From NCBI GenBank assembly GCA_033065855.1, contig JAVXUO010001110.1, positions 740,007 to 804,006 on the forward strand: a stretch of DNA of 64,000 nt, in the 5' to 3' direction. This document shows, in pieces, positions 7,548-61,626 of this stretch (positions are counted from its first letter, which is position 1; every line of letters begins with the position of its first letter). This DNA is from Escallonia rubra. Taxonomy: Eukaryota; Streptophyta; Magnoliopsida; Escalloniales; Escalloniaceae. The translations under genes and the position numbers were made by a program. The notes beneath the pieces are model-generated. The model saw only the letters and a list, made by a program, of their open reading frames with translations, was not told the origin of the DNA and made no database searches.

Positions 7548-7612
7548 ATTTCACGCTAAACTTTGTAAGAGTAACTAAATACACAAGTATAAGAGTAGTA
7601 ATAAGAAATAAC

Positions 7613-28675: not shown

Positions 28676-30765
28676 CTCCCCCTGAAGCCTGATTCCCTCA
28701 TTACAAGTTGACTCTTTAGCTTTTCGAATACTTCTCTTTCCAGGGGCTTTGTGAAAATATCCGCAACTTGATCTTCGGACTTCATAAACTTGACTTGGAA
28801 TTCTTTTTTAACAATGCTCTCACGGATGAAATGATACCATGTGTCAATGTGCTTGCTTCGATCATGAAAAATTGAATTTTTTGCAAGGGTTATGACTGAC
28901 TTGTTATCAACATATAAACAAACTATCAAGATGTCACCTTTTCCATTCATTTTGACGTAGGGTGCATGTTCTTGTGGGCACTTTTTAAAGCCTTGAAAGT
29001 ACTTGTCAATGTGACTGTTCCATGCCCTTGGCGTTTGCTTCAACCCATACAAGGCCTTCTTCAACTTCAATACTTTGTTTTCATAGCCTTGAACAACATA
29101 TCCTTCAGGTTGTTCGATATACACTTCTCCATCGAGAAAACCATTAAGGAAGGCTGACTTCACATATATTTGATGGATCTTCCACTTGTTTAGAGCAGCT
29201 ATAGATATCAAAATTCGTATTGTTTCCAACCGAACAACGGGGGCAAAGACTTCATCATAGTCAATTCCAGCCATATGCTTGTATCCTTTGTCGACAAGTC
29301 TTGCTTTGCATTCCTCAACCTTACCTTTGGAATTTTTCTTCACCTTGTAAACTCATTTTACACTAATTGGTTTCTGTACCGATTGAAGAAGGGTCTGCTT
29401 CCAAGTATCATTCTTCATAATGTCACTGATCTCTTCATTCATGGCCTTCCTCCATTCTTCACTTTTTGATGCGTCATCAAAATTGATTGGCTCAGTATCA
29501 GCAAAAAGACAGAACATATTTTGGTTCTGATTCAAGTCGTCATAAATATCTTCCAAAGATCTCTTGCCTTGTGGTCCCGTCTTAACAGATCTCTTGCTTT
29601 AAATATCTTCTGATGATGATGTTAGGCTCAATTGAGTTGGAGATGCTGGACTAGAGGGAGTCACAGATTCTGTCGACTCTTCTTCTACTTCCTTTTTATC
29701 TGTCTCGGTTGGATAAAAAACATAATGCTCCTTGTTTTGATCAGTCCAGTCCTATAAGTTTTTCTCATCAAAAGCCACGTCTCGGCTGACTTTTTTTTTC
29801 TTGTCAACAGGGTTGTATAATTTGTACCTTTTTGATTGTTGACTGTATCTGATGAAGATGTACTTCTCATTTTTTTTTCATTGAGCTTCTTTCTCTACTG
29901 ATCATGAATATGCACATATGCAATGCTTCCAAACACTTTCAAATGGGACACACTTGGCTTGAACCCACTCCAAGCCTTTTATGGTGTTTGATTCCACACA
30001 CTCCTCATTGGACATCGATTCGATATATAGACAGCACAATCCACGACTTCAGTCCTTAGGCAAATTCTTGCTCTTTAACATGGTTCGAGTCATGTCACTA
30101 TCGATTGTTTCTTTCTTTCCACCACTACATTCTGTTGAAGTGAATATTGAATGGTAAGAGGTTGATGGATGCCATTCTCTTCATAGAATGCCTTGAACTC
30201 ATTAGATGTGAACTTTCCACCTCAATCTGATCTCATCGCCTTGATCTGATACCCACTCTGCTTCTCAATGAGAGCCTTAAACCTCTTGAAGGTTAAAAAT
30301 ACCTTTGATTTCTGTTTGAGAAAATAAACTGAAGTTTTCCTGCTATAGTCATCAATGAACAGTAGAAGGTATATATTCTTACCAAGAGATGCAATATTGA
30401 TTGGACTACACACATCAGTGTGTATCAGCTCCAACAACACCTTTGCTCTCGATATCGAATGCTTTGGGAAGTTGTGTCGATGTTGCTTCCCGATAAGGCA
30501 ACCCTCATAGAGTTGGTCTATCGATGACACTATTTTTACCATGTTCTTTGTCGTTAGCAATTTCAAACCTCCAAATTAAGATGTCCGAGCCTCAAATGTC
30601 ATAACCAATATTGGTTATCAATAGAGGCCTTCAACAATTTCCGCGCATCTTGGCCACCAAGAAAAGTTTTCATTTGGATGCTCCACCTTTCATAGTTGTC
30701 TTTCACGAGCTTTGGAAAAGAAAATGCTCCAGTTGTTGCTGCCTTTAGAACCTTCGCTTCTGGTA
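28663..30765 (-). pseudogene. Copia polyprotein remnant (gag start, integrase, RT, RNase H)
   Basis: From 30765 downward, broken frames give the gag start (FSFPKLVKDNYERWSIQMK) up to LGGQDA. This is joined directly to a pre-integrase segment (LLKASIDNQYWL, then YEGCLIGKQHRHNF). Integrase follows (LIHTDVCSPI, LLFIDDYSRKTSVYFLK), then the linker to RT (EPINFDDASKSEEWRKAMNEEI) and RT (YKHMAGIDYDEVFAPVVRLETIR, ALYGLKQTPRAWN). At the catalytic YVDD box the frame passes straight from CLYVD into NKSVITLAKNSIFHDRSKHID of RNase H, so the part between is lost in frame. The rest (DQVADIFTKPLE) is intact. Stops and frameshifts elsewhere, and the missing gag tail and protease, make it non-functional. Confidence 0.9.
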
Positions 30766-30771
30766 CCACTT

Positions 30772-31152
30772 TGTTGCATGATGGGAACAATATAAGAGAT
30801 GTAATGAAGGTACTTAGAGTATTATGGTAGAGGAGGAAGTGGAGAGGATAATCGGTAATATTTTTCTCTACTCAACACTTCTTTCATAAAACTCACTCAC
30901 TTTTTCTTAGATTGATTCATCACATTATCAAATGACTAGGAGATGCACCTATTTATACTAAGACATTAAAGACTTATTCAAACCCTAAAGATAACTCCCC
31001 CAACCTTTCACTTTTCATCTTCTCTTTTAATCACTCATAACTTAGAAGTAACTCTCATAACCTTTCGTTTTTCATCTTCTCTTCATTTATGCACGTCTTG
31101 ATTCTTCCACATCTAATGTCCTAATTCATTGAATCGAGATTAACACTCAACA
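30772..31152 (-). repeat. Copia 5' LTR
   Basis: This 381-bp partner of 28312-28675 reads on the minus strand from TGTTGAGTGTTAATCTCG to CATGCAACA. It lies upstream of the primer-binding site, so it is the 5' LTR. It differs from its partner mainly by a small insertion around 30842-30868 and scattered substitutions. Confidence 0.93.
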
Positions 31153-41582: not shown

Positions 41583-42014
41583 TTAGTCATCTTCATCAGA
41601 CATTGGAGCATCAGAAACTGAATCAGGTTCAAAGCTCATGTTCCAATATAAACGTGCTTCGTTGTTGCAACCAGCTGCATAGCTTTCACGTGCCATACGA
41701 CGTAGGTTATGCCTACTTTGACGAACTCTCATTCTATTGTTTTCTTCACGTATACGATGCAGTGCCCTTTCAAGCTCCATATGTGTATTCCGAGGCACGT
41801 TGATTGCTTTTTGGCGAGGTATGGGTATATTCATGTGTCGTGAATCAACTACAAGGACCTCATATTCATTCAACCGATAAGACCATTCTGCATGTAATGT
41901 ATTAACATACCGTGATGAGTAACACAAACTTGGACGCAACGAATAGTGAAATTCATCTTCGCCCGCCCAGTAACGACCCATAGCTTCAAAAATGTCTCGT
42001 GGAGTATATGTCAT
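41583..42014 (-). CDS. Small intronless gene, unrecognised family (143 residues)
   Basis: The family was not recognised. I chose ATG 42014 (MTYTPRDIFEAMGRYW) over an in-frame ATG at 42074 because a TATA box at 42083-42090 would place transcription start between the two. The protein has a Tyr/Trp-rich N-terminal half, a central EWSYRLNEYEVL, a basic helical stretch RALHRIREENNRMRVRQSRH probably forming a coiled coil, and an acidic end (MSDEDD). It is a diverged paralogue of the plus-strand gene at 43610. From the EW pair to the ENNRM motif both have exactly 53 residues, with matching EW, ES/YE-L, R-ENNRM and acidic tail. No signal peptide, membrane segment or catalytic motif is seen. Preservation of an open frame in both copies suggests a real gene family. 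Confidence 0.6.
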   Translation of the reverse strand: MTYTPRDIFEAMGRYWAGEDEFHYSLRPSLCYSSRYVNTLHAEWSYRLNEYEVLVVDSRHMNIPIPRQKAINVPRNTHMELERALHRIREENNRMRVRQSRHNLRRMARESYAAGCNNEARLYWNMSFEPDSVSDAPMSDEDD

Positions 42015-42082
42015 TTTTAGAGTTCTTACACAACAAAGAATATAGCAGCTAGTTGCCCTTTGCCCTTCATCCACTACACATA

Positions 42083-42090
42083 CTTATATA
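42083..42090 (-). promoter_or_regulatory. TATA box of the minus-strand small gene
   Basis: On the minus strand it reads TATATAAG. It lies about 70 bases upstream of the chosen ATG (42014) but only about 10 from the longer ATG (42074), which would then precede transcription start. It therefore decides the start call. Confidence 0.5.
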
Positions 42091-42547
42091 ATGCTTGACA
42101 AGGGTCCACTTCAATAAATGCAACGTGTTAATATTTTTTGAGATGTCACAAGTCGCTGCAAGTTTCTTTAAAGTAGTTGATGAAAAGACTTTACAGATAT
42201 ATTAGTTGTTGAAAGGATAATAGCTCATTAACAGCTTCATCAATCCTTGAACTGTTAATAACAGATTGAAGGACAATTCACCGTGAAAAGTCTACAGCTA
42301 TAGCAAAATCAAAGTGTAGTTGTTGCTCGTCAGCTTGATATGGCGTGCTAGTTTGGAAGTACCTACGTTTGTCTTTTTTGGGGTTTAGGACATGCCAGAC
42401 ACGTGACGTTACTGCAAAAAAAAAAAAAAAAAAAATGTGGCAACGAGTTGATTCAATTTTTTTTTTTACCCAACTCATAACTCTATGTGAAGTTTTAAAA
42501 GTATGTAGCTAAAGTACATATGAAACCCATAATCGGTATTGAGCATA

Positions 42548-43609
42548 AATGCAAAAGCGCAAGAATGATGTAATTGCTTAGCGGGAAAAGCCTTAGAATA
42601 CCACAACCACTAAGAAGTTATGGGCGAGTAGAGGCTCATATTCTGGTAATAGATCATGGTTGTGCCTATTTTCTTCTCGCTCATTCAAGACACTGTCCAC
42701 CTAATTAAATAAGCTACTTGAACACAAATTTCCCATCGACAAATAACCTCTTTGAAAGCCTTCATATCTTTTACATGCTAACGTACAAATGAGCAAAATG
42801 AGATCGGAATTTACTTTAGACAAAGTAACGTGGTTGATGTAACATTTCACTGGAAAGGCCCTGGTCTACCAATAAACACATGCAGGGTGTAAGTGGCCAG
42901 TGACTTGTCTTGTCACTGGCTTGTCCTTTTCCAGTTCTCACAATAATGTATGGTGTCTACGTGTGTGTGCTTGGTTATATAAATTAGTGGTGTTCAAAGG
43001 GTGAGAAGTACTGTCTCTTGACTAGTCAAGGGCATCCCAAGCATATTACGTTAAAAATAATTGCGACAGTCTTATAAATTACTTGCTTAAAAACGAACTA
43101 TATGCAAAAGCGCAGGAATGATGTAATACTTCGCTGGAAAATCCTTAGAATACTAGAGAAATAAGTTATAAATACTTGTCGCGACCTTTGTATTCTGGCC
43201 TCAGATCATACTTGTGTCTATTTTCTTCTCGATGATTTAAGACACCACTCTTAACTATGTGAATGTTCGACACAACAAGGAGCCTCCTATTTAAATCAGC
43301 TGATTGAACACAACTTTAAGGCCTATCTGAGGTCAATTTTCCACAGCCTTGAGTACACAATACATGCTAACGTACAAATGAGCAAAATGAGATCGGATAT
43401 TACTTTAGACAAAGTAACGTGGTTGATGTAACATTTCACTGGAAAGGCCCTGGTCTACCAATAAACACATGCAAGGTGTAAGTGGCCAGTGACTTGTCTT
43501 GTCACTGGCTTGTCCTTTTCCAGTTCTCACAATAATGTATGGTGTCTACGTGTGTGAGCTTGGTTATATAAATTAGTGGTGTTCAAAGGGTGAGAAGTAC
43601 TGTCTTTTG
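42548..43609 (+). repeat. Duplicated promoter region upstream of the plus-strand small gene
   Basis: Copy A (42548-43020) and copy B (about 43102-43609) share the order of motifs from GCAAAAGCGCA.GAATGATGTAAT onward. The last 248 bases (42773-43020 against 43362-43609, offset 589) are almost identical, including the TATATAAA box and the run GGTGAGAAGTACTGTCT. Copy B runs straight into the gene at 43610. Copy A instead continues CTTGACTAGTCAAGGGC and has no open frame. Each copy contains a perfect stem GCCAGTGAC-7-GTCACTGGC (42896-42920 and 43485-43509), a possible regulatory dyad. Confidence 0.92.
43565..43572 (+). promoter_or_regulatory. TATA box of the plus-strand small gene
   Basis: TATATAAA lies 38 bases before the ATG at 43610, so transcription would start only about 10-15 bases before the codon: a very short leader. 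The same box is conserved in the gene-less promoter copy at 42976-42983. Confidence 0.6.
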
Positions 43610-44044
43610 ATGGCAGGACTTCCTGGTAGTTCTAATTATCAGCGACGTGAGAAAGTGTGGTTGTTGTGTGAAAGGAACGACGACTACAAAGAAGTGAAGT
43701 ATACAGATCCGAAAGAGTATTATTGCGGTTTACGGAGAGAATGGGCACATAGAGTTACGGAATCAGAAGCACTACACCAAGATCTCATCTCCCTTAGAGC
43801 ACCCTTGCTGCATCGTCGTTCACTCATTATGTCACGGCCCAAAGTTAAGGAGTGTAAGAAAGCTGTGAGCCAAATTCGAAAGGAGAATAACCGAATGTTG
43901 CTGCGTAGAAAACGATTTTACATGCTTCAACTTGCCGAAGAAATGGCAGAGGCTAGTGGGAGGCACCTCACTTCAAACGAGAGAAACAATATTTTAACCA
44001 ATGATCAGTACTTATCTGATGAATATATGTCTAGTGAAGAGTGA
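43610..44044 (+). CDS. Small intronless gene, unrecognised family (144 residues)
   Basis: The family was not recognised. The ATG at 43610 opens MAGLPGSSNYQRREKVWLL, preceded by a well-placed TATA box. The protein is charged, with EYYCGLRREWAHRVTESEAL in the middle, a basic helix KAVSQIRKENNRMLLRRKRF and an acidic tail (YLSDEYMSSEE). It aligns without gaps to the minus-strand protein at 41583-42014 from EW to ENNRM (53 residues in each) and shares the acidic C-terminus, so the two are paralogues transcribed divergently about 1.6 kb apart. There is no signal peptide or membrane segment. The helix plus acidic tail could suit a nucleic-acid or protein-binding adaptor, but that is only a guess. 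Its promoter is duplicated upstream. Confidence 0.65.
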   Translation: MAGLPGSSNYQRREKVWLLCERNDDYKEVKYTDPKEYYCGLRREWAHRVTESEALHQDLISLRAPLLHRRSLIMSRPKVKECKKAVSQIRKENNRMLLRRKRFYMLQLAEEMAEASGRHLTSNERNNILTNDQYLSDEYMSSEE

Positions 44045-44838: not shown

Positions 44839-45050
44839 TATAACTCTTTGGTGCAAAATATGTTCTGCTCAAAGAACTTTTCTGCTCTTATACATGGTTC
44901 TCTTTTTTATTGGAAATACAATGATTTTTCTATTCAATCAAAAAAAGAGTATAAATAGATTCCAAATATAGCAACTTCAAACATTCTTCACAAATTATTT
45001 ATAACTTGTTGGAATTTTCACTTCGTATTTCAGTATACACACTACAACAA
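44045..45050. other. Intergenic, AT-rich, with a (TA)n tract
   Basis: This is 3' sequence of the small gene followed by AT-rich DNA. No exon is recognised. A 22-base string, AACTTGTTGGAATTTTCACT plus TC, at 45003-45024 is repeated exactly near 62706 and may be an LTR edge. Confidence 0.4.
44779..44835. repeat. (TA)n microsatellite
   Basis: About 28 TA units with one CA interruption near the start. It is simple-sequence DNA. Confidence 0.97.
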
Positions 45051-45134
45051 AAATGACTTTTAGCGACGGGTACTTCATAAACTAAAAGTCTCCTTTCCGT
45101 CAAAAAATATTTTTAGCGACGGTTAGTCCATCGC
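45051..45134 (+). mobile_element. CACTA-like transposon end (single terminus)
   Basis: The sequence starts CACTACAACAAAAATGACTT and goes on with TTTAGCGACGG and an inverted CCATCGCTAAAAGTCCG, a pattern typical of CACTA termini and their subterminal motifs. No matching inverted terminus ending TTGTAGTG was found to the right in this window, so only one end is called. A kinase-exon fragment follows within 75 bp. Confidence 0.5.
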
Positions 45135-45206
45135 TAAAAGTCCGTTTAAAAAAATAAAAGCAGAAACACCAGGAACTTGGTAACTTCACTGTTGACCGAA
45201 ACTTAC

Positions 45207-45296
45207 AAGGCCAATTTGCGGACGAGAATCAGGTGCACGTCTGATACAAAGGCTAGCAGTTAAAACCATCTTCTCAAGTTGATCATGGTCATAATC
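45207..45296 (-). pseudogene. Receptor-like cytoplasmic kinase exon, downstream part
   Basis: On the minus strand this reads DYDHDQLEKMVLTASLCIRR then APDSRPQIGL and ends at a good donor (CCTT|GTAAGT). It matches kinase subdomain XI (the CIRR.P..RP.I core) of plant RLCKs of the At5g57670/USP-kinase type. It is the second half of an exon split by the 4.65-kb insertion at 45297-49951. With one copy of the 5-bp duplication removed, it joins 49952-50040 in frame (MGSDYDHDQLE). The rest of the kinase is absent, so this is a gene fragment. Confidence 0.8.
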
Positions 45297-45299
45297 TGT

Positions 45300-47401
45300 C
45301 ACGCCCCCGGAAGGGGCGCAACAATTAATCCTAAGGCAACACATGTTATCATGCTTAACAGAAAGTTCGGGTAAGAGCAGGAAGGCAAAGCGAACCGCTC
45401 CCGTATGTCCTCCGAGGAAGATTGAGGGCAAGTTTAATCCGTCGACTGTAATCAAAACTACCAAAGCCATTGTCACGCGGAGGGGAAACTTAAAAGGTTG
45501 AGAACTTAAGATTATCTATTTGATGTCATGGAGACAAATTTCGCACCCTCTATAGCCCGAATTGTCTTCTCTCTAACCTATTTGGGACAGAAATGATAAA
45601 CGCACCGGCTCTCAAGGGCTCGAATAGATCCAGTCAATTTAAGGAATGGGAGGGGTAAAGTGCAAGCAGAAAATAAACCTCATACATACACTCCTTTTTC
45701 TCAAGGTTGATAGTCCACGAATATAACGTGTCTCTACAAGTGGTTTATTAATCTTATCTCATGTATGGTTAGTCTAATGTGGTTTTAATTAACCTTATAA
45801 GATGTCTTTTCTTACAAGCATTTAGCTGTGCCAGTGAGATCAACTATATGCAACAATGGAGAATCTACTACATTAAACAAAAGGGAACGAATCTGTGGCA
45901 TCTTTGTAAGAATATTAAGCACCAGTCGCCCCAGTCTCGCTTTCCTTCTCTCATCTGTTATTGCATGCTAGAAACATTGACGGCATAACAAAAAGACTGG
46001 CATGCCAACAGCCACCACCACCACCAATCTTTCATCAGCTCATTTACTTTGCAAAACCCACCACCACCACCACCTCACTCCGTAGACACCCACTCGTCTC
46101 CTCCATGTCATCACAAACACGGTTAAGCGCGAACTCAGGGAGTGCGTTTCACTTGACTGGCGTGTTCATTGGATGGAAGTTGCCTGTGGTGACAAAACTG
46201 GTTCTTTTTTTTCTTGTATAGAATGTCGCTGAAGTTCGCCTGTGACGTGTCTACTTCGCGACTCAATTTGCAAACATCGGCCAAAGTATTTCCAAGGATG
46301 CAACTAAAAACTTGTAGCGACAAATATGGGTTGTGGGTTTGGTGTTTTCTGGGGGATGTTGCTCCAACCAGGATTGAAGCAAAATAATTTCCTTCTCAGA
46401 ATCTCAAAACCTTTGCCTTGGTGAAAATTAAAAACAGAAATTAAAATGCCTTGCCACACTTATGATTCTCTGCATATGACAAACATTTTTAGGAGCAGAA
46501 AATGGGAAGAGAAAAAAAAAATATTGACTTCCCAAAATATGCATAGCATCCCTTCTAAAAGGGGCAACAAGCCATAGAGGATGAGAATGCCTCCACAACG
46601 ACCACAATGTCTTCTATCCATTCACAATCCATCAATTCATAACCGGAGAAGAGGCTACATCATTGACTTCTGCCTATGAACAAATATCGCTTAAGACTTC
46701 AGCTTCCGAAAATTCAAGAGGCGTAGAGCACAACAGTGAGCAACCAGTCAATAACTGAATCGATGGGCATTGAACATACTCTTCGAAAGCAACATCAGGG
46801 AAAGACACATCTAAGATAACTCTCTGAACCTTGCAAATACGTTAATATATATCTCTCTCCAGACATATATATACATTTATATATCGAGTAGGGACATGTA
46901 TATATATACACAAGCACAAGCACACAAACATATATGCGCACGCAGACACGCATATGTGTGTGTGTGTGTTAAAGAATCACAACAGTAAGTGGATTAAAAA
47001 GTAAATGTTGGACTTGGAACCTTCAATCGCTATGAAAATATAATGCCATAAGAATTCGGGGAACAAATGCCAATCTAATTCCGCACATGCACAAATAATA
47101 CGAGATAAGACAATCGGTTTGAAAAGCAGGAAGCCGTTTATTCAAACCTGTAAGTGTTTCTTACAGCCTCTTTCTGCAGAAAGTTAGCACAGGAAAGGTA
47201 CACAAACCTGCACTCAGAATGTTGGATTATTTGCACCAGCACTCCACCTTCCAACATCTTGCTGCCATGAGACGTGATATGTACAGGGGACTCGCAACGA
47301 GCAGAGGCTTCTTAATAGCAGCTCTAGCTGTTTCTTCTTCCTCAAGAATATTCTCTTTGTTGTTAAGAATTTTCTCTTTGTTGTTAAGAATTTTCTGCTT
47401 A
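45300..47401. other. Unassigned left part of the insertion
   Basis: No coding exon is recognised. Features include a GC-richer opening with TGTCACGCC and, at 45472-45483, a second TTGTCACGCGGA; a CCACCA-rich patch near 46005-46075; AC/GT simple repeats near 46910-46970; and a doubled 21-bp motif (AAGAATTTTCTCTTTGTTGTT) at 47350-47395. The last few hundred bases may be the ETR1 3' untranslated region. Confidence 0.4.
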
Positions 47402-49873
47402 CTAGGCTTCAAATAGAACCCTATGCTCTAAGAGCTCAGATAAAACAATTCTCATTTTGTCTACTGAAACAGGTTTTAGTATGACTCCATCCATGCCGAC
47501 TCTCAAGCAGTGCTCCTTTGTTACCCTGTCTGTGTTTCCAGTCAGTGCAACAATAAGGGGTCTTTCATGGCATTTTGAAAACATTTCATGTATGCGGACA
47601 GCAATTTCATAGCCATCTACACCAGGCATACAGATATCCATAAACACCACCTGGTGTTCCTGAGTAATAGCACGCAAACACTCATCTTCCGAGCTAACAG
47701 TCATCACATCACATCCCAGATGCACAAGAAGTCCCTTCGTTACGCTCCTGCTAACCCTGCATACCCGCAAAATAACAAATTTATGAACGACAATCAGATG
47801 GTAATTAACTGTACTACCTTATTGATCGGCCAACCAAAAGTCAATCTTAGCGGCTCTTACTTGCAAAAACCTACGTGTGTTGGAAATTTCACACCATCTA
47901 ATCACTTCTATCAATGATGAAACCTTAAAAGATTTAAGAGCAATAAGGAAAACGCTTGACGGGGAAAGCTGAATTTTAAGGAGTCAAAGTCAACGGGCAA
48001 GTCCTAGGTGCCCTAGTTTTTATGACTTTCATTGCTTTCATTACAACCAGACCTTGCTATCGCTTAAAGTAAAGGAGGTATCTAGTGAAAATATGCTTAT
48101 CTTAGGGCTTTCACTCAAATCTTGAGTGCTACTTATTCGCGTAACATCGAGGCTGGCTGTGTGGGGGAGGGTTTGGGTAGGTATAGAAATGCAATATTCC
48201 TCTCTACCAAGCTAGTCTGATGGGACTACTCTAATGGGACAGCCCACATTTTTGGGAAGAGGCAAATTGCTTTCAGCCAAGCACTGTGAATCCAAGAATT
48301 TTCTCCCTCGCAATGGTGGGAGCCTGGGCACCTGGCCTTTTATATAGACTGTTATACAATAACTAATGTGGCACCACCTAACCCCACTAACTTGAAACCC
48401 CAGTAACACATACCTCAGTTTTGGCCATAAAGCCCCCAGGAATAAAATTGATATTAGAAAAGTTAACTAATTGAGCAACGAAGTAACATGATCTAAATGC
48501 ATTACTAACCCATTGTCATCCATGACAAGAACTTTGAGGCCCAAAAAATTTGTCTGGCCATGATTAGCAGGACCTTTGGGTACAAAAGAAAGCTTCAATT
48601 CGTTTGAGCGCTCAGGGATACCAAGTTTTACAACAAAGATAGCAGTAGATCCCTTGCCGAGGCCTTCACTTTCAATCCGAATATGCCCTTCCATAAGATT
48701 TACGAACCTAATTGCACAAACCAGAAAAGAGGTCGACATTTAAATTTTGAAATGCAGATTTACCAGAGAACAAAGCAATTTATGATCTGATGTTACAAAA
48801 AATTAGAATGCCTGAGAAAAGATGAGACTCTTTTTTCGAAGAGTTGCATAGACAACCCAGGCAGACGAGAAACCTGTGAAGTACCAAAAGTGACATACCT
48901 CTTACAAATTGCAAGTCCAAGACCACTGCCATCAGAATTTTTTGTTGCTAGTGATTGGCCTTGAGCAAATTTGGTGAATAACTTGGGAATATCTTGGGGA
49001 TTAATTCCTGATCCTGAATCTTTTACCTACGCTAGAGGAAAAATGTAAAAATGTCACTAGACTGTGAGATACAAAAAGCATTTCAAGGCCAATTTAGATC
49101 CTTCTTGAGCATAGAAGAGGCCAACCTGTACGCGCAAATAAAAATGATTATCACTAGGAACTGGGAAAAAATCAGGAACTCGAGGATCTCTTAAAGACTC
49201 TGATTTTGCAACAAAAGCAGAAAGTGAAATGCTGCCATCTTTCGAGAACTTCACAGCATTGCCAACAACATTCAGAAGCGTTTGCATAAGTCGCTTTTCA
49301 TCACCAACAGCATATTCTGGCAAATCTGAAGCCAAGCTCAACGTAATGAGCAACTTTTTGACAGATGCAATCGGCTTTATCAAGTTAAGGACCTGACATT
49401 AAGACAACAAATCTCGTTACAGCCAATGACAACATTGTGCTATTCACTACTGTGCCTAAGCTAATCTAGAATGAATTGTTATTGCAAAAGATCTGGTAGC
49501 CTACTTCCTTGAAGAGAGCATGAAGGTTAAAAGTTCCAATGTCAAGTTGAAGGCTGCCATCTTCAAGCCTGGAAAGATCCAATACATCATTTATGAGGGT
49601 AGCTAGAAGATTACTGCTCTTAAGGATTGTTTCAACCATCAGACGTTGCTCAGGTGTCAGCTCAGTTTCCTGTAGTAAGGAGGAAACCACAATAATTGCA
49701 TGCATAGGAGTTCCCATCTCGTGGTTCATAACAGCAAGGAAATCATTACGAGCACGAACAGCCGTTTCTGCTTCTCTTCTTGCCAAATCAAGTGCAACAT
49801 TCTGCTCCATAAGAAGATCCCTTGCCCTCATTGACTCTTCTAGGATAGCGGCATGTGATAGAGCAACAACAAC
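47402..49873 (-). pseudogene. ETR1: C-terminal half of an ETR1-type ethylene receptor (five exons)
   Basis: Exons are 49873-49505, 49392-49126, 49026-48899, 48707-48510 and 47756-47402. All have GT/AG borders and agreeing phases, giving 438 codons without a stop. They cover the end of the GAF region ([12 protein letters not shown]), a HisKA domain with the phospho-acceptor in [11 protein letters not shown], an N box ([12 protein letters not shown]), G boxes ([15 protein letters not shown]) and a receiver (MDDNG, acceptor [17 protein letters not shown]). The length and receiver place it with ETR1, an endoplasmic-reticulum ethylene receptor that represses signalling through CTR1. The ethylene-binding membrane segments and most of the GAF are absent; only 78 bases of intron precede the first exon before the insertion edge. 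The H box has Gly where Arg is usual (HEMRTP). It cannot bind ethylene; whether it is transcribed is unknown. Confidence 0.9.
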
Positions 49874-49951
49874 CTACATCACAGCAACCAAATTTAAATA
49901 TGTTTAAACTTAATAAAATGATTAGTAGCTAATTAAGATCGGGGCCTCACA

Positions 49952-50040
49952 TAATCACTGCCCATGCTTGGATCTAACAACTGCAAAACCTTCTCACCCT
50001 CTAAAATTGGCTTCGCCTGGAGGTCATCATCAACTCCCGT
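49952..50040 (-). pseudogene. Receptor-like cytoplasmic kinase exon, upstream part
   Basis: On the minus strand it reads ...DDDLQAKPILEGEKVLQLLD then PSMGSDY, where it meets the insertion edge. This is the stretch just before subdomain XI in RLCK kinases (WAKPIL...QLLDP..G.DYD). Its upstream limit is uncertain: acceptors at TTGATTCAAG or ATGACCTCCAG are both possible. Together with 45207-45296 it forms one exon of about 57 codons. No other kinase exons lie nearby, so this is a captured or leftover fragment. Confidence 0.75.
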
Positions 50041-50340
50041 TTTTACTTGAATCAAGAAGGAAGAAATCATAGAGGAAAAATTTTAAACACTCGTGCATGT
50101 ATGCAATCCATCAGACATGCTTAACAGTATGTACGATGTCAATTACTAGTGCAATCCATCGTATACTTAACATGCATTAATCTAAATGCAACATTCCATC
50201 GCTACTTCAAAGAATAACCAGTACATACCATCACAAAAATGCCACACGATTACAAAGCATGTTTTCAAAATAGCTAAGTCAACATGTTGCCTGTACTAAG
50301 GTTAGGGGACTGGTTTTCATGAGTGTGCTAATCTGCAAAG

Positions 50341-53300
50341 TTAAGTTCCACATGGTGCTCGTACTCCTTTCTTTGCCCTTGGAGGATTCCTCTTGGCGTA
50401 TGTCTTGAGTTTATGGCGCTTTGCAGGCTGCTCCATCACAACACATTGTGTTGCACAATTCGACGTAGGAGGAGGCTCCTCTGTAACCTGTGAAACTGAA
50501 TCTTTCACAGGTGAACAAATCCCATGAGGTGCTCTAAGACGATGGGGATGTTGACTTCGTCGAGCTCGTGGAATGGCATAAAAAAACTGGTCGGAAATGC
50601 AACCTCCTCTACCTTGACCAGTGATTCGTCCAGGACTTGATACTCGGCTACCACCTGTAACGCCACTGCTAAAGCTGTGATATGGAACCGACCCATGTGT
50701 CTCTTCCTCAATAGGTTCCAGCTGTTCTTGTACCATCTCATAACAAGCAAGTGGATCAGTAGAAATAGGAGGGATTTCCGAAGGTATATCATTGACTATA
50801 CCTTCCATCTCAGATTCATGAAGCAGCGGGGATGGCATGTGATGTACAGCTGCTGTCTCAGTTGCTGATATAGGTGCTGGGCCTCCTGGTGTATGAGGTC
50901 GATCAGATCTATTAGGTGTGGAAGATGATGGCCCATGAGCAGGGGGTGTACTGGATGTGGAATGGGATGTCAAAGGCTCATGCTCTGCAGCTGTTACAGG
51001 CGATGGTGAGGGCAAAACCTGCATATGAGGTTGGACTGACGGTGGCACGTGTGATGTTGATGCAGTGTTTGGTGCTGGTGCACCTATCGGTACTACGGTG
51101 ACCGGCTCCATGGTCGGTCTCGGTCCCTTTCGGCGTGCCCGCGGTGGTCGTCGGGCCTGAGTAGCTGGTTGTGTCGGATCCTGGATTCGTGGCTCTGGTT
51201 GTGCACCGGCTGAGATTCGTTCAGCCTCACAAATGGCAGACAGTGCTTCTCGACACACAACTTTAATACTTGCAAGGGATTCAATGGCTGCATTAGGGTC
51301 AGTAGAATCAGCAAGGTGGAATATGCACTTGATTTGTTGTGCCTGCAAAATAAGCAAGTTCGTTAATAACCAGCTAGTTTGAGGTCAATTTCATATTTTC
51401 TGTTACCATCAACCTTCAAAGAAGTCACTACTGTAACAACCTAACTACGAAATGGAATTGCATTACCATCAACCTTCAGAGAAGTCAAATCCCAAATGCA
51501 TTTACATTAAATCACGCAACAACACAGCATGATATTTAGTCAAAGAAACAACATGAAGGATGTAAGGCATATGAAGCTAGAGAGTTTGTAGAACAGAGAT
51601 TATTACCAACAGGGTCCAAAAAGAATCCCACTCACTAACATACAAGCACCCGAAATAATAGGGAGGAACAAATACCATAGACAACAGGTTTGTCCTCGTC
51701 TGGGTTTCGATCTGCCTCAAAGAACTCCTCTAGGGGGTCATAGCCAGTCCTGCAGCAGCAGCAGCTGCAGCAGCAGCAGGAGCAGCAGCAGCAGGAGCAG
51801 CAGCAGCAGCTGCAGCAGCAGCAGCTGCAGCAGCTGAAGTTTCTGTTTTGGCTGCAGCTAAGAGTGTCCTCCCAAACGCTCTTGTCATAAACATAATATG
51901 CGAACAGATTTCTGCAGAATATCTTTAATGAGTTCAAACTTAGAAAAGCATGAATTGGTTTAATCAGCCATCCAACACAACAAAGTCTCATCAGGAGAAA
52001 GATGCCCACTGCGGGAACCGAGTACAGTACAGCGTAGCTAGTTCCTAAACCAATTACGGACGGTTCCAAATTCCTCTCACCGTATTCAATATGCCATATT
52101 AACCAAAGGGTGTGGAAATGAGGTGCTATTATACTTATCACCAGACAGAAAATGACCACACAAACAATGAAGGCTTAACTTTTAATCCCACAACTGCAAG
52201 GCTTTTATGTAATCTTTATAGAGACGTCATATCAGGAAGCGGTCCTAGACCACAACAAGTTTGACAAATTACGTTGAATAAGCTTTCTTTGTTTTTCAAT
52301 TTTCTTTCAAAAGGTTGTGATGCCAACATTTGTGAAGAGAATCTTATTCAACTCTTTTGAAGAATAAAACAAAATAAAATCACAAAAGTACTTCCACATA
52401 AAAGGAAACACTACTGAAAAAGGTACGAGCAAATCAAGAAATACGACTATACCATGCTCATTTTGAGTATTTAAAAGGGTGTTTTGAATAGCATAAGGAC
52501 ACGTAACCGCAATCAGTCATCAGAGCAACTTCATGGTGCCAATCTTAGAACTACCATCACAGTTTTATCACGTGCACTGGCAGTACCTATGATATATGTC
52601 CTGTATTTTAAAATGTCTAATGCATGGATAATCGGATCTTGTAGTTTAAAATTTTCATAACGTGAATGATCACAAGGTTTTAGTAGCTATTTCTGGACCA
52701 AGCAGAGTGGTCTTATTAGTCTAAGGGAAGTCCTACATGTAAGTGCATAACATGTGTTCCTAGCAAGAATCACATTTTCTTCCCCAAGTGACAAATTTAT
52801 GTACCACAACTCACCAAGTCTTCATATCATTCTCTATTGGGTGGCTACATGATCCTAGCTAGCAATCAACCTCTTTTTCTCTTTCTTCTCTATCTTTTTG
52901 TTCTAGCCTAGATTCCCTTTCTTTTCCCTGTCATTCAAGAGTAACACTTTCGGGATTTTCTCCTTCCTTATGCAAGTGCTGTGACTAACATCCCAGAAAT
53001 ATCCTTCTTTGATACCTCTTGCCCATGCATTTGTGCACACTGCACAACAATCCTCCTCCAAGATTTAGTCAAGTTGAGCTGCATATACTGTTATTCTTAC
53101 TTGACTTAAACTTATATTGTAAGGCACTTCTCCAACCCTAGAACATTGCATAAACTCATGTTAAAGCTCGTACACAACTAGTCTAGAAAATGACATATAC
53201 GAAGCTCTCTTCATCCTTAAATCCACTGTATTACAATGAAATAAAAAATCCTAAACTCAGACTTCTTTAATGAAGCAAGACCCTAATCCTGTCACTAGTA

Positions 53301-56271
53301 CTAAGGCAGTAAACCAGAATCTGAATTGCTCACAGGAATGGCTTGTAACTGTATCATGATTGTATCTGAAAATTGCAACACTGGGAACTTCCCAGTAATC
53401 TGGGACAATGTGTTTTGCTTGTGCAGGAGGCCAGCACCCAGGCATACGGGATAACCTGTTTTGTTTTAGTTTTTCTATTTTCCTTTCTACCTCCCCTGTA
53501 TTCCTTTCTTCTATTTTCACATCATTATTTTGCTTATGTGAGAAAAACCATTTCAACCTCCCAGCCCAGACATGTGTCTTTTGTTCATACGATAATCCCA
53601 ACATATTCATGCAAATAATCAAATTCAGACAATACAATTAATGTAACTTGTTGGAATTCCCTCCTTCTCTCTATGTCTCTCTTATACAGGGCTTGGTTTT
53701 TAGTGAAATCAGGAGTTATGGAATTCCCTCCTTGTCTCTAGAAAAACCATTTCAACCTCCCAGCATTGTGATGCAGCACATCAGGATATTTACACTAAAA
53801 CAACATCCGAAATGAGCAATTTTAGAGGTCTTTGCTTTGCACTTCACCATTTGGGACCCCATATCCAACATATGTCCCAAATGTTAAGTCATTATACCCC
53901 AACATCCACACAATCATGCATGTCAAGCCATGTTTTTTGCCAGGAAATCTGCCAACCAACAATTCCTAATCCCTTAGAAAACCTGGAACAAAGAAAGGGC
54001 TATACATTGCGCAAATGTGATTATTTTATCTGGGGTCAAGTGGAGTGGAAAGAATTTAACATATACTTTCCACATGTGTCATACTTTCAAGCTCTGCATG
54101 ATAGTTTCTAATCTAAATGATATCATATTTAGAAAGCATCCCAGCCCCAAACGTACACACACAATCCTAAGTAAATCAAACGGGATGCATGTCGTTGTGT
54201 CTTGAGCATTGTATCTAGAAATGATCTTAGAGCATAACTAAGCGTGTAAGTGGGAATGGTCACTATCATGCGAAAAAAATGTAGATAGTTGCTAGCGTTT
54301 AAATGGAGGAAGGGCCTAAGATACATACCAACATCTCCACAGTAGCATGCCCTCCTTGGTATCCAGATGGTATATTTTGCACCGGTTTGCCAACCAACAG
54401 ACGGGTGATCGAGCGGTACCACAACATGTATGGGCTAGAGTACCCTGCATCAACATATTCTCCTGCCGCGTCTATACGATATATAGTATCTGCACGAGCA
54501 TTCCACATGTCAATGTAGACACGATGTTTCAGCTCCCAGTCGGTGTTCGGGTGGCCCCGACGATCAATCTTATGAAGGACCTCACCACCAGTGTCACAAT
54601 CACGGGGGATCACCTGGCTCATGCTGTATTGGGGGCAAACACGGTCCGGGAAGTGCCACTCCACTCTTTCGAAGCAGATAAGCGGCGATCGAGTCATCCA
54701 AACATGCCTTCCGGTCAAGCAGTACTCCGGTAGCGAAGCTAAGTCATACGGTTGCCATATGAACTGCGGGATGTAAAAGGCACATTTTTTTGAAATAACA
54801 TATAGACAAGCCAATTACATACTTATGTACCACATGTGAATACTTAAGCACAAACCTCTGATGACTTTAAATTGTCCAGCTGATCCCTATATCCCCTGAG
54901 ACACTGTGATCCTACCCTGTCACTTTCCAGTGCTACAAGCCACCTGTCGATGTTATTTTCAAGTTTGGTTAATAAACATAAAAGGTGATAGTAACCATAG
55001 ACGCATACAATTCCTATAGACTTTCATACTATCACAAGTATGAAAGTAACCATAGAAGCATACAATTCCTATGAAACTGTCCAACTGTTACTGTAGCCCA
55101 GAAATAAGGGCTTACCTCCTACCCAAAGGGTCTCGCGGTAAAGGCTCGACTTCATGTGGCTGGGGAGGGCCTCCACCAGCAACAGGTGCATCACCAGCGG
55201 CCTCATTATGTTGCATGTCAACAGCAGCAGGTTGTGCCCGGTCCTCTACGGGGGGGAATCTTTCAGGGCCTCTTTCGGGACGCATGTTAGGGCACCTCTC
55301 CCAAGCCCATAACTATGTGATAAGGTATTTTACAAAGAAGGATCAATGATAAGATATCGTATAGAAAAAGAAGGAGATTAACACTTTAGCGTACCTGCAA
55401 CAGAATTAGGGGTCCCCCAATCTCATATGCTGAACTCCTGCTTGCTCGGCACATCTCATGGTACAAGTAAGCTAGAGCTGCACTACCCCAACTACGCCCA
55501 CTCGCAGCATTAAGGTCTTGAAGCAAAGTTAAGTACATAAGAGGAACCCTAGCGCCAGATAGGTTTGGGAGTAAAACACCACCAATCAAGGCCAATATAA
55601 GAGCCCTGGCATGCTGTTGTACAATCTCATCATCTGAACCCTCTGGTAACACCATGAATTGATCCATCAGCCAACGAAGTTGTATTGACCCTCCACGTAT
55701 GACCGTTGCAGGTGGCCTGACACCTAACCATTCATGACAATACTCCCGCCACGCATCCGTGGAACATGTAGTGTCAACACCTGTAACAGCATCACCGTCA
55801 ACGGGTAGCCCAGACAACACTGCCACGTCCTGTAATGTAATTGCAGCCTCCCCAACACGAAGGTGAAAAGTATGGGTCTCAGGCCGCCATCGCTCAACAA
55901 GTGCTGTGATGAAAGCATGATCAAGTCTAACCTCCATGATCCGGTAAAGCCCATAAAAACCAACTCGCACCAAGTACTGCATGACACGCGCATGTGGCTC
56001 CATCCTTCGATTCCCACCGCGATTCCGAACTAGTGGTCCTAGGGCTCGTCGGCATGTCAATACCTTATCAACCTGCATGCATTTTCTATATCAGTTAAAT
56101 TAAACATGAATAATTAAAGTTGATAACAAAATCAAGTACCTCTCCATTCCAGACACAGCTAGAATGATGAGAATGTTGCAAATCCAGTACATGAGGATCG
56201 ACGGGCCCTGGATTTACCAAATGCTCCACAATTTCCCCCTGTCTAGGTCCTTCATGTCTTAGTCCCTCCAT
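50341..56271 (-). CDS. Plant mobile domain protein (MAIN-like / PP7 long-form homolog type), six exons
   Basis: Exons are 56271-56140, 56072-55395, 55312-55116, 54943-54856, 54763-54329 and 51342-50341. All junctions have GT/AG borders and compatible phase, giving about 843 residues. The start MEGLRHEGPRQGEIV is chosen because the upstream in-frame ATG adds only seven residues. Exons 2-5 carry the plant mobile domain (VGFYGLYRIMEVRLDHAFIT, ALVERWRPETHTFHL, LSGLPVDGDAVTG, LWAWERCPNMRPERG, PEYCLTGRHVWMTRSPLICF, GHATVEM). The last exon is Pro/Ser/Thr-rich and ends basic (KRHKLKTYAKRNPPRAKKG). PMD proteins such as MAIN and MAIL1 act in the nucleus in gene silencing and meristem upkeep; many others belong to transposons. 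Intron 5 is about 3 kb. The next gene upstream on this strand is a MULE transposase 0.83 kb away. Confidence 0.88.
51752..51835. repeat. Imperfect (GCA)n microsatellite in PMD intron 5
   Basis: GCAGCAGCAGCAGCTGCAGC-type repeats with GGA and CTG interruptions span about 84 bp. Open frames over it read poly-Cys/Ser or poly-Ala/Gln but lack start, splice or domain support. Confidence 0.95.
53541..53763. repeat. Short direct repeats in PMD intron 5
   Basis: AAAAACCATTTCAACCTCCC followed by AGC occurs at 53541-53563 and again at 53741-53763. In between, TGGAATTCCCTCCTTCTCTCT recurs as TGGAATTCCCTCCTTGTCTC. It looks like a small local rearrangement within the intron. Confidence 0.8.
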
Positions 56272-57102
56272 CTCTACAAAAAACCAATCCAAACTCTATG
56301 GTAATTAGCGTGAAAAAACACAATGCACGAAATAATATTAAACTGATTATTATCTTCATCTCGCTTTTCAAGCATTGTCACCTAATTTCAGTTTTGTCAC
56401 CTAGTTCAAGTTTTATCACCTAATGTCTATTTTGTCACTTAATGATTAAGCAGTGGATGCAATGGTCTACGAGCAGCTGGAAACAAATCAGTGCAAGGAA
56501 TAGTAAAAACAAGAAGCTATGCAGTAATTGGGGAATAAATGAGCGAATACTGATATATTAAACACCCATTAGTTGTATATAGCTGCTTTTGTAAATGTGA
56601 GATGTGTATGAGGACACAATTCTCAGATGTAAATTTTTCTATGGTAATGCAATTGACTTTCATCAAAAAAACTTTAGAGCATCATTTGCAACACCACCAT
56701 CTTCTTCGCGGGTTAAGTACGAGGGCAGGCTGAGATAGTTAAAGTCATGCAGAGAAGATGAGAAGCAAAGACAAAAAGGTCTACTTGAAGTAACGGTTAA
56801 ATGGGAAAAGCATGGTAAGGTAGATGCAGGTTGCTTACGTGAGATGGCACATGCAAAAAAGGGCCTACGAAGTGACTACCTTTTATGATGAAATAAGGTT
56901 TGTCACTCTTGATTATGTTTGTATCACAACATTGTGTAGCATTCTATGTGGAGATAAACTTCAAACTTTCAAAAGTTTTAAAACTAATAATAGGAACATG
57001 ACATAGAGTTTTCAGCCAAAGGACTACATTAGTTTGTACAAAAGTTTGACCATAATATACAACGCAGACAATATGAAAAAAAACGATGGGAGCCGACTCT
57101 TG
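56272..57102. other. Gap between the PMD gene and MULE transposase
   Basis: About 830 bp on the shared strand hold AT-rich sequence and a TTTTGTCACCTA/TTTTATCACCTA motif repeated three or four times near 56377-56440. No exon, terminal inverted repeat or LTR is seen. It must include the PMD promoter and the transposase gene 3' end. Confidence 0.45.
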
Positions 57103-59766
57103 TCAAGTGTCAAACGTTGTTGTTTGAGCTGTCTGCCTTGCATGACATGTACGCTTGTCGTGGCCAGTATTTTTGCATAATCCACAACGTTTCGGCTGCC
57201 GCTCTAGACGAATATCCATTTCATTGCGCAAACGGACTGATCTTGGTCGACCCTTCCCTCTATTTATAGCAGGGGGCATGAATGTACAGCTGGTCCATTC
57301 TTCCCAGTAATCTGGATGCTCCAGTGGTTGAAACATTTCAGCCCATATCTTGCTATATTCCCGAACCGAAAACCAGGCACTGATAAATGCACAAGGATCT
57401 AGCTTTGCCACTGCACAACATGCTAGAACATGAGAACATGGGATTCCATATGTCGTCAACTTCCCACATGTACATGTTTTATCTTGAAGCCGCACAACCT
57501 GTGCGTTTTGGCCGCGTTTATTTCTCACCAAAAAATCCCCCCGATCACCGGTCGTGTTATAAGGTTGCACAAACATAGAACCAATTTTCCTTTTCGCTTG
57601 TTGAATTGCAAGAATGACGGAAGGGACATAATGCATTTGATCTGCCATAGAGGTTGCCGCAAGGTTTCTTCTCAAATTAAAGTAATGTACACAACGGTGA
57701 AAAGAGGTTTGGACTAGTGCTGTGATAGGTAAGCCTCGAGATCCTTTCAAAACACTGTTAAATACTTCAGAGATGTTGGTCGTTATCATTCCAAAACGTT
57801 TACCACCATCATGTGCAAGTGTCCATTGTTCAACGGGTATCTCATCACACCACTTTTTTGCTTCTAACGAAAGATTTTTGACCTCTTCCATCAACTCGTT
57901 GAATTTGCGAACTTGAGTAGCCTTCCCAGCAGCCCAAATAAGCTTCTTCAGCTCCGAACTACTGAATTTTTTTGTGAAATTGCTACGAATATGTCTCAAG
58001 CAGAACCGGTGATGGGCATAAGGTGGCTGCCATAATTGGTTTTTCCTCACAGTGCTTAAGATACCGGGATGGCGATCTGAGATCAAGCAAATACACCTAT
58101 CACTTGGGACCACATAATCTCTAACATGCTGCAAAAACCAATTCCAGCTATCATGGTTCTCCCCTTCAACGATAGCAAATGCAAGCGGCAATATTTGGTT
58201 GTTTCCATCGGCTGATACGACAATTAACATGGTCCCTAGATACTTTCCATGAAGAAACGTGCCATCAATGCTAATAACAGGACGACATAATCTAAATCCC
58301 ATGATGCATGGCTGAAATGCCCAAAAAACTCGTTTAAAGCGTATTGCATCAGATTCTCCACGCCCTTTTGGATCGTATTCGACAATGGTACCGGCATTAT
58401 ACTTTTGGATGGCAGCTAAAAATTTTGGCAATGCCCGATATGACTCTTCCCAATTCCCATACAAATCAGCAATAACCGCCACCTTGGCCTTCCACGCCTT
58501 TTTATATGAAACAGTGTATTCATATTTTTCCTTCACAGCTGCAATTAAAGAGCTAATTCTAACCATCGGATCAGCTTCAACTATATTGTGGACTGCTTCA
58601 GTAATCAGTCTATAGTTTACGTGGTGTTGGTCTTGGTCCAAGGCCGTCCTCAATGGACATGTGTGAGGTCCTCGATAGCGTGTAACTTCAAAATAGTTAT
58701 GGCTCTTCTTACACGTTGCACGGAGATAAAAATTGCACTCATTCGGGAACTTACATGTCAAAGCCACCATAGTTGGGATAGACTGCTTCACCTTGTAGAT
58801 CAAATTATGCTTGACGTGGTACCTTAAAATAGCCTTCACAAACTCGCTTTTATCCTTGAAAACTAGACCCACTCTTAACTCGTCGTGCTCGGGATGCCAT
58901 ACAGTAGCGTGATTGCTTTCAAGAGGACTTGTAATAACTGCAGCGGGTGCCCAATCAACGTCTGTGAAAAAATGCTCGGTAGGCTCGTATACGCGTCTCT
59001 GAGCTTCTAGCTCAGTACTTATACCGTTACCATAATCCTCCCCATCGTCATCTTCATTTAGCCTATCCATGAATGCATCTTCTTCGCCTTCCGAATCTGT
59101 CCTCTCATGTTCATTATCCAGATTAGGTGCCTCAATGATGGTTGATGCCTCATTCCCCAAGTCAATCATGTTATGCAGCGGTAAAAGCAAAGAGGAAACA
59201 TGACCAGTCACACCTATACCCTGAGGTGTGACATTGGAAATCCCGCCACAATAACTAGCTCTGATATCGTTGTCTACGGGAGATAAAATCGAACTTTGTG
59301 TGGCATGATCACCAATGTCCAAGGAGGTTAGATCCCTTATGGGCGTGGACATGCTACGTTGTGGAGGGGATAGCCTGTCACAGTTTGACACAAGATTCCG
59401 GGAAGAGGAACCGTAGCCCGTCACAATAGCCTCCATTTCAATAAATAACTCAATGGCGCTCAGCTGCGAGAATTGAGATTGGAGATCAAACATAGCTTCT
59501 ACATCTCCATCATCCTCAATCGGTACTTTGATATAAAAGGTCTGAGCACCGTTTCCAACCATCCGCGGATACCTACAATTCAACTTCAACCTGAAATGTT
59601 CCTTGTCCAATTTTGTGCATCTACACAGCTTATCCATCAAGCAATTAAATGTCCAGTTCCCCTCCACCTTGATCAACTTCTTTGGTCCACAATCATATGC
59701 ATAACCGTCTGAATCTTCTACTGCATTTCCTCCCCAGTAGCACAGCAGCCTTACGGAAGGAGCCAT
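57103..59766 (-). CDS. MULE transposase (MuDR type), intact 887 residues
   Basis: This is one uninterrupted frame in a favourable start context (GCC ATG G). The N-terminal region is followed by acidic stretches (210-245), a MuDR DNA-binding domain (about 290-372: VGLVFKDKSEFVKAI ... CPLR) and the MULE catalytic core. Conserved residues are D501 in ISIDGTFL, D564 in LISDRHPG, the C-x2-H motif at 589-592, and E667 in TTNISEVFN. Then come a SWIM zinc finger (C765, C767, C777, H779) and a CCHC knuckle (C861, C864, H869, C874). Every catalytic and zinc residue looked for is present, so the protein may be active or domesticated (compare the FAR1/MUSTANG lineages). A GTGAGT donor near 60068 on the same strand could belong to a leader intron. 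No flanking terminal inverted repeats were found. Confidence 0.93.
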   Translation of the reverse strand: MAPSVRLLCYWGGNAVEDSDGYAYDCGPKKLIKVEGNWTFNCLMDKLCRCTKLDKEHFRLKLNCRYPRMVGNGAQTFYIKVPIEDDGDVEAMFDLQSQFSQLSAIELFIEMEAIVTGYGSSSRNLVSNCDRLSPPQRSMSTPIRDLTSLDIGDHATQSSILSPVDNDIRASYCGGISNVTPQGIGVTGHVSSLLLPLHNMIDLGNEASTIIEAPNLDNEHERTDSEGEEDAFMDRLNEDDDGEDYGNGISTELEAQRRVYEPTEHFFTDVDWAPAAVITSPLESNHATVWHPEHDELRVGLVFKDKSEFVKAILRYHVKHNLIYKVKQSIPTMVALTCKFPNECNFYLRATCKKSHNYFEVTRYRGPHTCPLRTALDQDQHHVNYRLITEAVHNIVEADPMVRISSLIAAVKEKYEYTVSYKKAWKAKVAVIADLYGNWEESYRALPKFLAAIQKYNAGTIVEYDPKGRGESDAIRFKRVFWAFQPCIMGFRLCRPVISIDGTFLHGKYLGTMLIVVSADGNNQILPLAFAIVEGENHDSWNWFLQHVRDYVVPSDRCICLISDRHPGILSTVRKNQLWQPPYAHHRFCLRHIRSNFTKKFSSSELKKLIWAAGKATQVRKFNELMEEVKNLSLEAKKWCDEIPVEQWTLAHDGGKRFGMITTNISEVFNSVLKGSRGLPITALVQTSFHRCVHYFNLRRNLAATSMADQMHYVPSVILAIQQAKRKIGSMFVQPYNTTGDRGDFLVRNKRGQNAQVVRLQDKTCTCGKLTTYGIPCSHVLACCAVAKLDPCAFISAWFSVREYSKIWAEMFQPLEHPDYWEEWTSCTFMPPAINRGKGRPRSVRLRNEMDIRLERQPKRCGLCKNTGHDKRTCHARQTAQTTTFDT

Positions 59767-61626
59767 GGCGAACCTTCAATGTTTGCATAGAAATATGATT
59801 AGGTTTTCTATACAAACTATGTGTCATTACAAAGCATGGTAAATCAGTGCAAGGATGAGGCTTGCTTGGCCTGCGCACACGCCAAGCCACAAACAAAAAA
59901 CACACGCACACCAAAACACACACACACACGATGGACATATTCTGGCCTAAAACTCATCAATCCATTTCTATATTGTTTCTTGCATCATAAAATGACTAAA
60001 GCTATTATATAAACATAACTAACTTACATTACAATTACATATACAAAAAGATCAAAAAGTACAAACTCACCTAAGCGATGATGGGATGGTGTTCTATGTG
60101 GCAAATACCAACTATATATGCAGTGATCCAATAATTTCTGCATGGTGGCTAACTTATAATGCTCTCAGAGGGTAAGCACAAAGGGCTCAACAACTGAGTC
60201 AAAGTAATGATTACGTGATCTGAACATTGGTAAAGTCAATATCATCTCAAATTCCCCCTTAAGGTAGCTCCGACCTGCTATCATGTTTTGTTAAGTGGCC
60301 AAGATTAGATGTTGGAGGTATTAAAAGCCGCCATCTTACTCCCACAAAGAGTGACCTCTCCTTAATACAAAGAATAAACGTATAAAACTGCAGCATGTTC
60401 GAGTCCATGTGATTTTCAAGTCCATGGTTAGTATACAAAACTCAACACTTAGAGAGCCGACAGTCGATCTGCCGTAACTCTGACTCAAGACGGTATAATT
60501 CTCCTATCGCACCAAACATTCTTGAGGATCCGATTCAAGAGAAGATGCGATAGACTGTGCACAAGCTATTGATTTCTAATTATCCTCAATTCTCCTATAA
60601 CAAAGCTGGTACATGAGTTACATAGGTAAACTAAAGCAAACAAAAAGCTACTAATGGCTGGAACCAAGGGAATTTGACTGGAATATGTAAATCATTAGGT
60701 ATGATAGAATACAGAATATGCCTCCACCACGAGGTAATGAAGGTAAAGCTGCAGAATCACCTCATGCTAGCTTATCCATTGGAATAAACACTTCAATCAC
60801 AGAGAAGTTCCCCAGCAACCTATTCCAAACTGAGATGCAGATTTTTAGTGGTGCTTCAGCTAAGGATTATTCTAAGTGTAGAGATTGGTTTAATCAATTT
60901 CTGAAATTCTGCTTAGTATTTGTATGCGGGGTCATTCCACCTTTGAGTTTGATCCTGGAGGTGACCAATTTATGTCAAATTCAAATGTACCGCTCTTTAC
61001 TTCTAATTGTTTGAATATCGGTTGTAATTTCCCCCTTAAAAGGGGGAAACACCAGGAAGAATGTATGTGAAATGTGAATCAGAAAATCTCTCTTCTCTCT
61101 CTACCATTTCTGAAGTTCTCTCTCTATCTCTCTTCCTCGTTCACTCCCCTTCTCTGTTCTTCAATTTTCAGCCCATCAATTCCATTAAAAGCGCAACCAT
61201 AACCTTGTTAAGCCATGGCCGGTAACGTATCGAGCTCGATACATGTTGAACTTCATTACTGCAAGTAGTACGTTGTTGATCGTACTTAGCGATTGCGAAT
61301 AGACACAGCAGAAAAGAACCAAAAAAAAGAGCACCTGTCTTGGTACTAAAAACATAGCCAACGAAGGTGGGTTGTGTGTGTGATAGTTTCTCTGTGTGTG
61401 TGTGGGTTTGCTGGCCAGTGTGTTGTCATGGATGTTCCATCCAGACATCCCCTTAAGATCAGAATTCAATTGAAGAAAGCAGCTGCTACCAATGGAGTCA
61501 GCATCACCAACAATGAAGGCTTGGAGCAGGTGACACACACGCAGGGCTACACAGGAGATCAGCAGGCGCGTGAAGAAGATAACAGCAGTTAAGGCATCAG
61601 CACGTGAGGAGCATGATCAGCACTAA
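59767..61626. other. Transposase upstream region and LTR-like sequence
   Basis: 59767-60100 is the presumed leader and promoter of the transposase, with a CA-rich patch at 59880-59930. From about 61010 to 61180 the sequence has CCCCCTTAAAAGGGGG, a perfect 16-base palindrome, then CT-rich runs (TCTCTCTTCTCTCTCTACC, TTCTCTCTCTATCTCTCTTC) as in the 3' part of plant Gypsy LTRs. This fits a Gypsy remnant that continues at 61627. Open frames at 60718-61014 and 61374-61592 have no recognised domain. Confidence 0.4.

Follow-up and report, generated by a model that had tools for sequence, protein, structure and literature searches.

Half of an ETR1 ethylene receptor gene, introns included, within an insertion that splits a kinase exon in Escallonia rubra

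A 64,000-nucleotide stretch of the Escallonia rubra genome (contig JAVXUO010001110.1 of assembly GCA_033065855.1, positions 740,007 to 804,006 of the forward strand; hereafter the window) contains a kinase exon that is interrupted by a segment of 4,655 bp. This segment carries the 3' half of a gene for the ethylene receptor ETR1 on its minus strand. The initial annotation of the locus had described the segment as having TGT...ACA ends and lying between two copies of TAATC; its limits and the TAATC on both sides are as described (Table 1).

When the flanks are joined with a single TAATC, the two kinase halves rejoin in one open frame (...LQAKPILEGEKVLQLLDPSMGSDYDHDQLEKMVLTASLCIRRAPDSRPQI), as had been claimed. 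The rejoined sequence aligns without gaps across the junction to both BAK1 (phmmer; whole-sequence E 0.0042, best stretch 0.073) and CERK1 (whole-sequence E 0.0049, best stretch 0.029). Because Pfam gave no family at E 0.1 for the rejoined 61 aa, its identity as a kinase depends on these modest matches; it may resemble the plant receptor-like cytoplasmic kinases. Scanning all six frames of the window with four strict kinase motif patterns, which would miss degenerate motifs, gave no hit. The exon seems to stand alone, and with Mutator-like genes and a CACTA-type end close by it was probably brought to its present place as a fragment. The earlier description therefore stands for a split exon that rejoins, and probably needs to be narrowed to a fragment of a kinase gene.

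The minus strand of the segment reads as ETR1 from exon 2 through the stop codon, in five consecutive exons that encode 438 aa with no frameshift. The exons total 1317 nt, in frame including the stop. All four introns are kept (112, 99, 191 and 753 nt) and have GT-AG junctions, and an AG precedes the first exon, which bears out what was first reported of this gene. The product matches Arabidopsis ETR1 structures (4pl9, E 1.6e-85; 1dcf, E 3.7e-58), as well as the ERS1 structure 4mt8, and has HisKA, HATPase_c and receiver domains. Its H-box has changed from HEMRTPM to HEMGTPM at a position where ERS1 has R, which may be a variant form or a sign of decay. On the minus strand, a polyadenylation-type AATAAA is present at 47142, 260 bp beyond the ETR1 stop. 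At the opposite end, only 78 bp separate the first ETR1 exon present from the right end of the segment, and no coding sequence for the membrane ethylene-binding or GAF parts of ETR1 was seen in the three minus-strand frames of the segment.

The left part of the segment contains no recognised genes. Altogether, 36 open reading frames (ORFs) of at least 40 aa overlap 45297-47420, and among the six of these given to Pfam, none reached a cut-off and no transposon or retroelement domain was recognised; one has a weak match to DUF5332 (E 0.035). The proposal that no known element gene lies within the segment thus agrees with these six of the 36 left-part ORFs. The left 2.1 kb has no significant direct or inverted repeat in common with the right part of the segment.

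The segment begins with TGTCACGCCCC at 45297 and finishes with GGGGCCTCACA at 49951, and these termini are complementary at 9/11 bases. To gauge chance, 100 first-order Markov sequences were searched for TGT..ACA inverted repeats (at least 9/11) with a 5-bp target-site duplication (TSD) and a spacing of 0.2-10 kb. The window has two such pairs, against a Markov mean of 1.69 and a maximum of 7, so that ends and TSD by themselves are weak evidence. However, the breakpoints are set independently by the kinase frame. Random breakpoint pairs had a TSD at a frequency of 0.00141, the inverted repeat at 0.00024 and TG..CA at 0.00474, while none of 3,000,000 pairs had all three together. A single insertion event carrying half of ETR1, as the initial annotation proposed, is therefore a sound reading and well supported. 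The insertion, its duplication and ends, and the exons, introns and strand of ETR1 are all directly observed.

The exact TGTCACGCCCC occurs nowhere else in the window. When up to two mismatches are allowed it is found at 12 places (5.89 expected; 12 is reached in 4 of 100 shuffles); the left near-palindrome and the two segment ends account for three of these. The exact 22-base left end has no match in viral_contigs, nor has 45297-47380 any among plasmids, and both results carry little weight as these are non-plant collections. One exact 21-base match in a Porphyrobacter genome is taken as chance.

Table 1. Features of the insertion and its surroundings (positions are those of the window)
Feature	Position	Strand	Remarks
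Inserted segment, TGT...ACA ends	45297..49951	.	4,655 bp
TAATC target-site duplication, left copy	45292..45296	.	read from sequence
TAATC target-site duplication, right copy	49952..49956	.	read from sequence
Left terminal near-palindrome TGTCACGCCCC-CGGAA-GGGGCGCAACA (hairpin)	45297..45323	.	
Part without recognised genes	45297..47100	.	right limit a guess
ETR1 last exon (receiver domain) with stop	47402..47756	-	355 nt
ETR1 exon	48510..48707	-	198 nt
ETR1 exon	48899..49026	-	128 nt
ETR1 exon (ATP-binding part)	49126..49392	-	267 nt
ETR1 exon with H-box HEMGTPM	49505..49873	-	369 nt
ETR1 intron 1 remnant and element end	49874..49950	-	possible 77-nt intron GTGAGG...TACTAAT...GTAG; splicing predicted
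Kinase exon, 5' half	49952..50045	-	exon limit placed by an AG
Kinase exon, 3' half	45207..45296	-	exon limit placed by a GTAAG donor
CACTA-type terminus (CACTACAACAAAAATGACTTTTAGCGACGG) with two TTTTAGCGACGG repeats, just outside kinase fragment	45040..45145	+	right limit approximate
Mutator-like genes	54299..59775	-	Pfam matches
Plant mobile domain ORFs	54299-54814, 55386-56090	-	
Mutator-like element (MULE) transposase	57103-59775	-	

The segment is tentatively read as an insertion of the long terminal repeat (LTR) retrotransposon class, most likely a long solo LTR, that contains the 3' half of ETR1 antisense and unspliced; we give this reading a probability of about 0.42. LTR elements have TG..CA ends and TSDs of 4-6 bp (review PMC6696364), and the segment has TG...CA ends with a 5-bp TSD (TAATC). 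The rice LTR retrotransposons Retrosat2 and RIRE8 have LTRs with common 10-bp ends, 5'TGTCACACCC-GGGCGTGACA3', that is TGTCACACCC...GGGCGTGACA (PMC3485330). The segment ends TGTCACGCCC and GGGCCTCACA are nearly the same: compared by eye with the published text, they agree at 9/10 and 8/10. In addition, Retrosat2 LTRs are longer than 3.2 kb and many are solo (429 solo LTRs versus 162 complete elements); the same paper also speaks of LTRs exceeding 5 kb (PMC3485330). The available part of PMC3485330 mentions no captured host gene. These ends, together with the TSD, favour an LTR, and as no pair of LTRs is present, a solo LTR. A complete LTR element, with two direct LTRs, was rejected since no terminal direct repeats were found in the segment, as is expected for a solo LTR. 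The best guess for the gene-free left part is that it represents the bulk of a long LTR, perhaps plus some ETR1 3' flank.

The LTR nature and direction of the segment, the route of capture and the solo-LTR step are what we infer. An LTR element would have lain downstream of ETR1 in convergent orientation, and its read-through RNA would have extended antisense into ETR1, from the 3' end of the gene as far as intron 1. Introns cannot be spliced in antisense RNA, which would account for their retention. Template switching could then have placed the antisense ETR1 sequence into an LTR, integrase would have put the product into the kinase exon, generating the 5-bp duplication, and LTR-LTR recombination would have reduced it to the single copy now present. 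Among the gene-capture routes described in plants are both read-through transduction and template switching, and template switching put Wis-2 sequence into the BARE-1 LTR (review PMC13317346).

A number of observations weigh against this interpretation. The two ends match each other at only 9/11, no other copy of the segment occurs within the 64-kb window, and the segment has no primer-binding site for initiator methionine tRNA with up to two mismatches (other tRNAs were not tried), a site that a solo LTR would be without in any case. Plus-strand AATAAA motifs at 45672, 48441 and 49137 lie in the path of the read-through RNA. Were the supposed LTR transcribed on the minus strand, ETR1 would be sense and its introns should be gone. 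Captures by Bs1 and by terminal-repeat retrotransposons in miniature (TRIMs) took exons only (PMC4717578), and several steps are needed. The antisense capture by an RNA-mobile element raised in the initial annotation is plausible in view of the similar published LTR ends, but neither an LTR pair nor an initiator methionine primer-binding site was found in the segment, nor a second copy in the window.

The retained introns are also what would be expected of a Pack-TYPE DNA transposon, a less likely but live alternative. Such an element, with short terminal inverted repeats (TIRs) of the form TGTSASGCCCC and a 5-bp TSD, would have captured genomic ETR1 with its introns and been moved by an unnamed transposase. 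The inverted ends (9/11) agree with this, and introns kept whatever the strand are the usual outcome of capture at the DNA level. These elements typically hold host gene sequence flanked by short inverted ends and a TSD (PMC4717578, PMC8903248), and Pack-MULEs carry exons and introns, in contrast to TRIMs (PMC4717578); by this rule the introns point to DNA capture, unless the gene was antisense. Pack-TYPE elements are reported across the principal TIR superfamilies of plants, and as the CACTA set has 5-nt TSDs (PMC8903248), TSD length alone leaves a DNA transposon possible. However, the segment ends match no nameable TIR superfamily and differ from CACTACAA, the CACTA TIR named in PMC8903248. 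No sequence is shared between the segment and the window's Mutator-like element. The ends are presumably also unlike those of hAT, PIF and Tc1/mariner elements, and it is the published Retrosat2/RIRE8 LTR ends that fit instead.

Repair in place is a second live, though rather improbable, alternative. Here, a solo LTR would have entered the kinase exon, and a later double-strand break within it would have been patched with a genomic copy of ETR1. Introns and strand would then be explained without RNA steps, and the ends and TSD would belong to the LTR alone. However, the patch, at about 2.5 kb or more, would be long, and no flanking duplication was found within the segment. More doubtful still is a stepwise mosaic of gene fragments within a larger CACTA, Mutator-like or Helitron element, with TSD- and TIR-like ends by chance: the kinase exon does have Mutator-like genes and a CACTA-type end in its vicinity, and TIR and TSD pairs arise about 1.7 times per 64 kb by chance, but the kinase frame fixes the breakpoints, none of the 3,000,000 random pairs has all three marks, and the criteria used detected no Helitron-type hairpin with CTRR in the segment. 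A Helitron inside the segment was rejected on the same scan (0 hits; mean of 0.65 in 20 shuffles) and on the presence of a TSD; six weak matches (up to two mismatches) to a Helitron 5' motif were left aside.

Rider reportedly moved intron-containing genes at the tomato sun locus, where the Rider element itself is said to be present. In contrast, the segment described here has no element gene, in the part searched, and no LTR pair. Rider at sun is named among plant gene-capture cases (PMC13317346). Bs1 and the gene-carrying TRIMs are likewise LTR-class elements with host gene pieces, and 30 TRIMs have 5-bp TSDs; unlike the segment, they lack introns, and both LTRs are present in the 30 TRIMs (PMC4717578). 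Nothing on the introns or strand of captured genes was found in the available parts of PMC7602945 and PMC3726574. Literature searches yielded no match for Rider with introns, nothing relevant for ETR1 with transposons, and, for full-text matches to TGTCACGCCCC, no transposon paper as judged by title or abstract start; none of these proves that such a report has never been published.

Plants are known to have genes captured by mobile elements, whereas unspliced capture between retrotransposon-like ends is unusual. Its significance follows from the exon-only captures of TRIMs and Bs1 in the available part of PMC4717578. If the favoured reading of an LTR-class insertion is true, an LTR-ended antisense segment with five intact exons and their introns would be a clear case in which orientation protects introns during RNA-based capture. 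It would also illustrate how a regulatory histidine kinase can be parted from its sensor half and moved into a new context.

It is very improbable that the insertion made a new gene, with the kinase exon spliced in frame to ETR1 exon 2 and the ethylene-sensing half lost. The minus strand at the insertion edge reads TAT/GTGAGG, and the element-terminal TGTGAGG could possibly supply a splice donor there, a predicted instance of exon shuffling by a retrotransposon end, in which the introns would have survived through antisense capture. The predicted splice to ETR1 exon 2 would take out 77 nt without shifting the frame, so that 482 codons stay open between stops, and a branch-like TACTAAT lies 48 nt before the acceptor end of the candidate intron. 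The candidate donor matches 6/8 consensus positions (5 to 7 for the four ETR1 donors), and 8.4% of the 7,029 GT sites in the window score as well. The first ATG of the fused frame is upstream of the putative kinase exon start and the second is within the kinase exon.

The insertion sits in transposon-rich DNA. No partner for the CACTA-type terminus at 45040 was found in the window. Around the Mutator-like genes, 38000-64000 contains no inverted arms of at least 30 bp beyond local simple repeats, and none that are convincing by blastn. Two minus-strand ORFs between these genes and the kinase exon (50341-51384 and 51635-52174) have no Pfam match, and there is a GCA repeat close by, at 51752-51834. 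There are no Rfam matches in 40000-64000 and no tRNA in the window. To the left of the insertion, small ORFs on opposite strands (41583-42083 and 43577-44044), without Pfam matches, have an ENNRM stretch in common by eye; between them lies a direct repeat, roughly 0.5 kb long (79%; 42546-43021 and 43099-43610), that runs into the start of the second. Further away are the C-terminal half of a hAT transposase (5267-6370), with an overlapping ORF (6345-7550) that looks like the other half, and a tandem array with a 412-bp period (15466-16496). Lastly, direct repeats of 86% identity (28312-28675 and 30772-31152) flank an ORF at 28663-29352 that is copia-like by eye, and are possibly an LTR pair.
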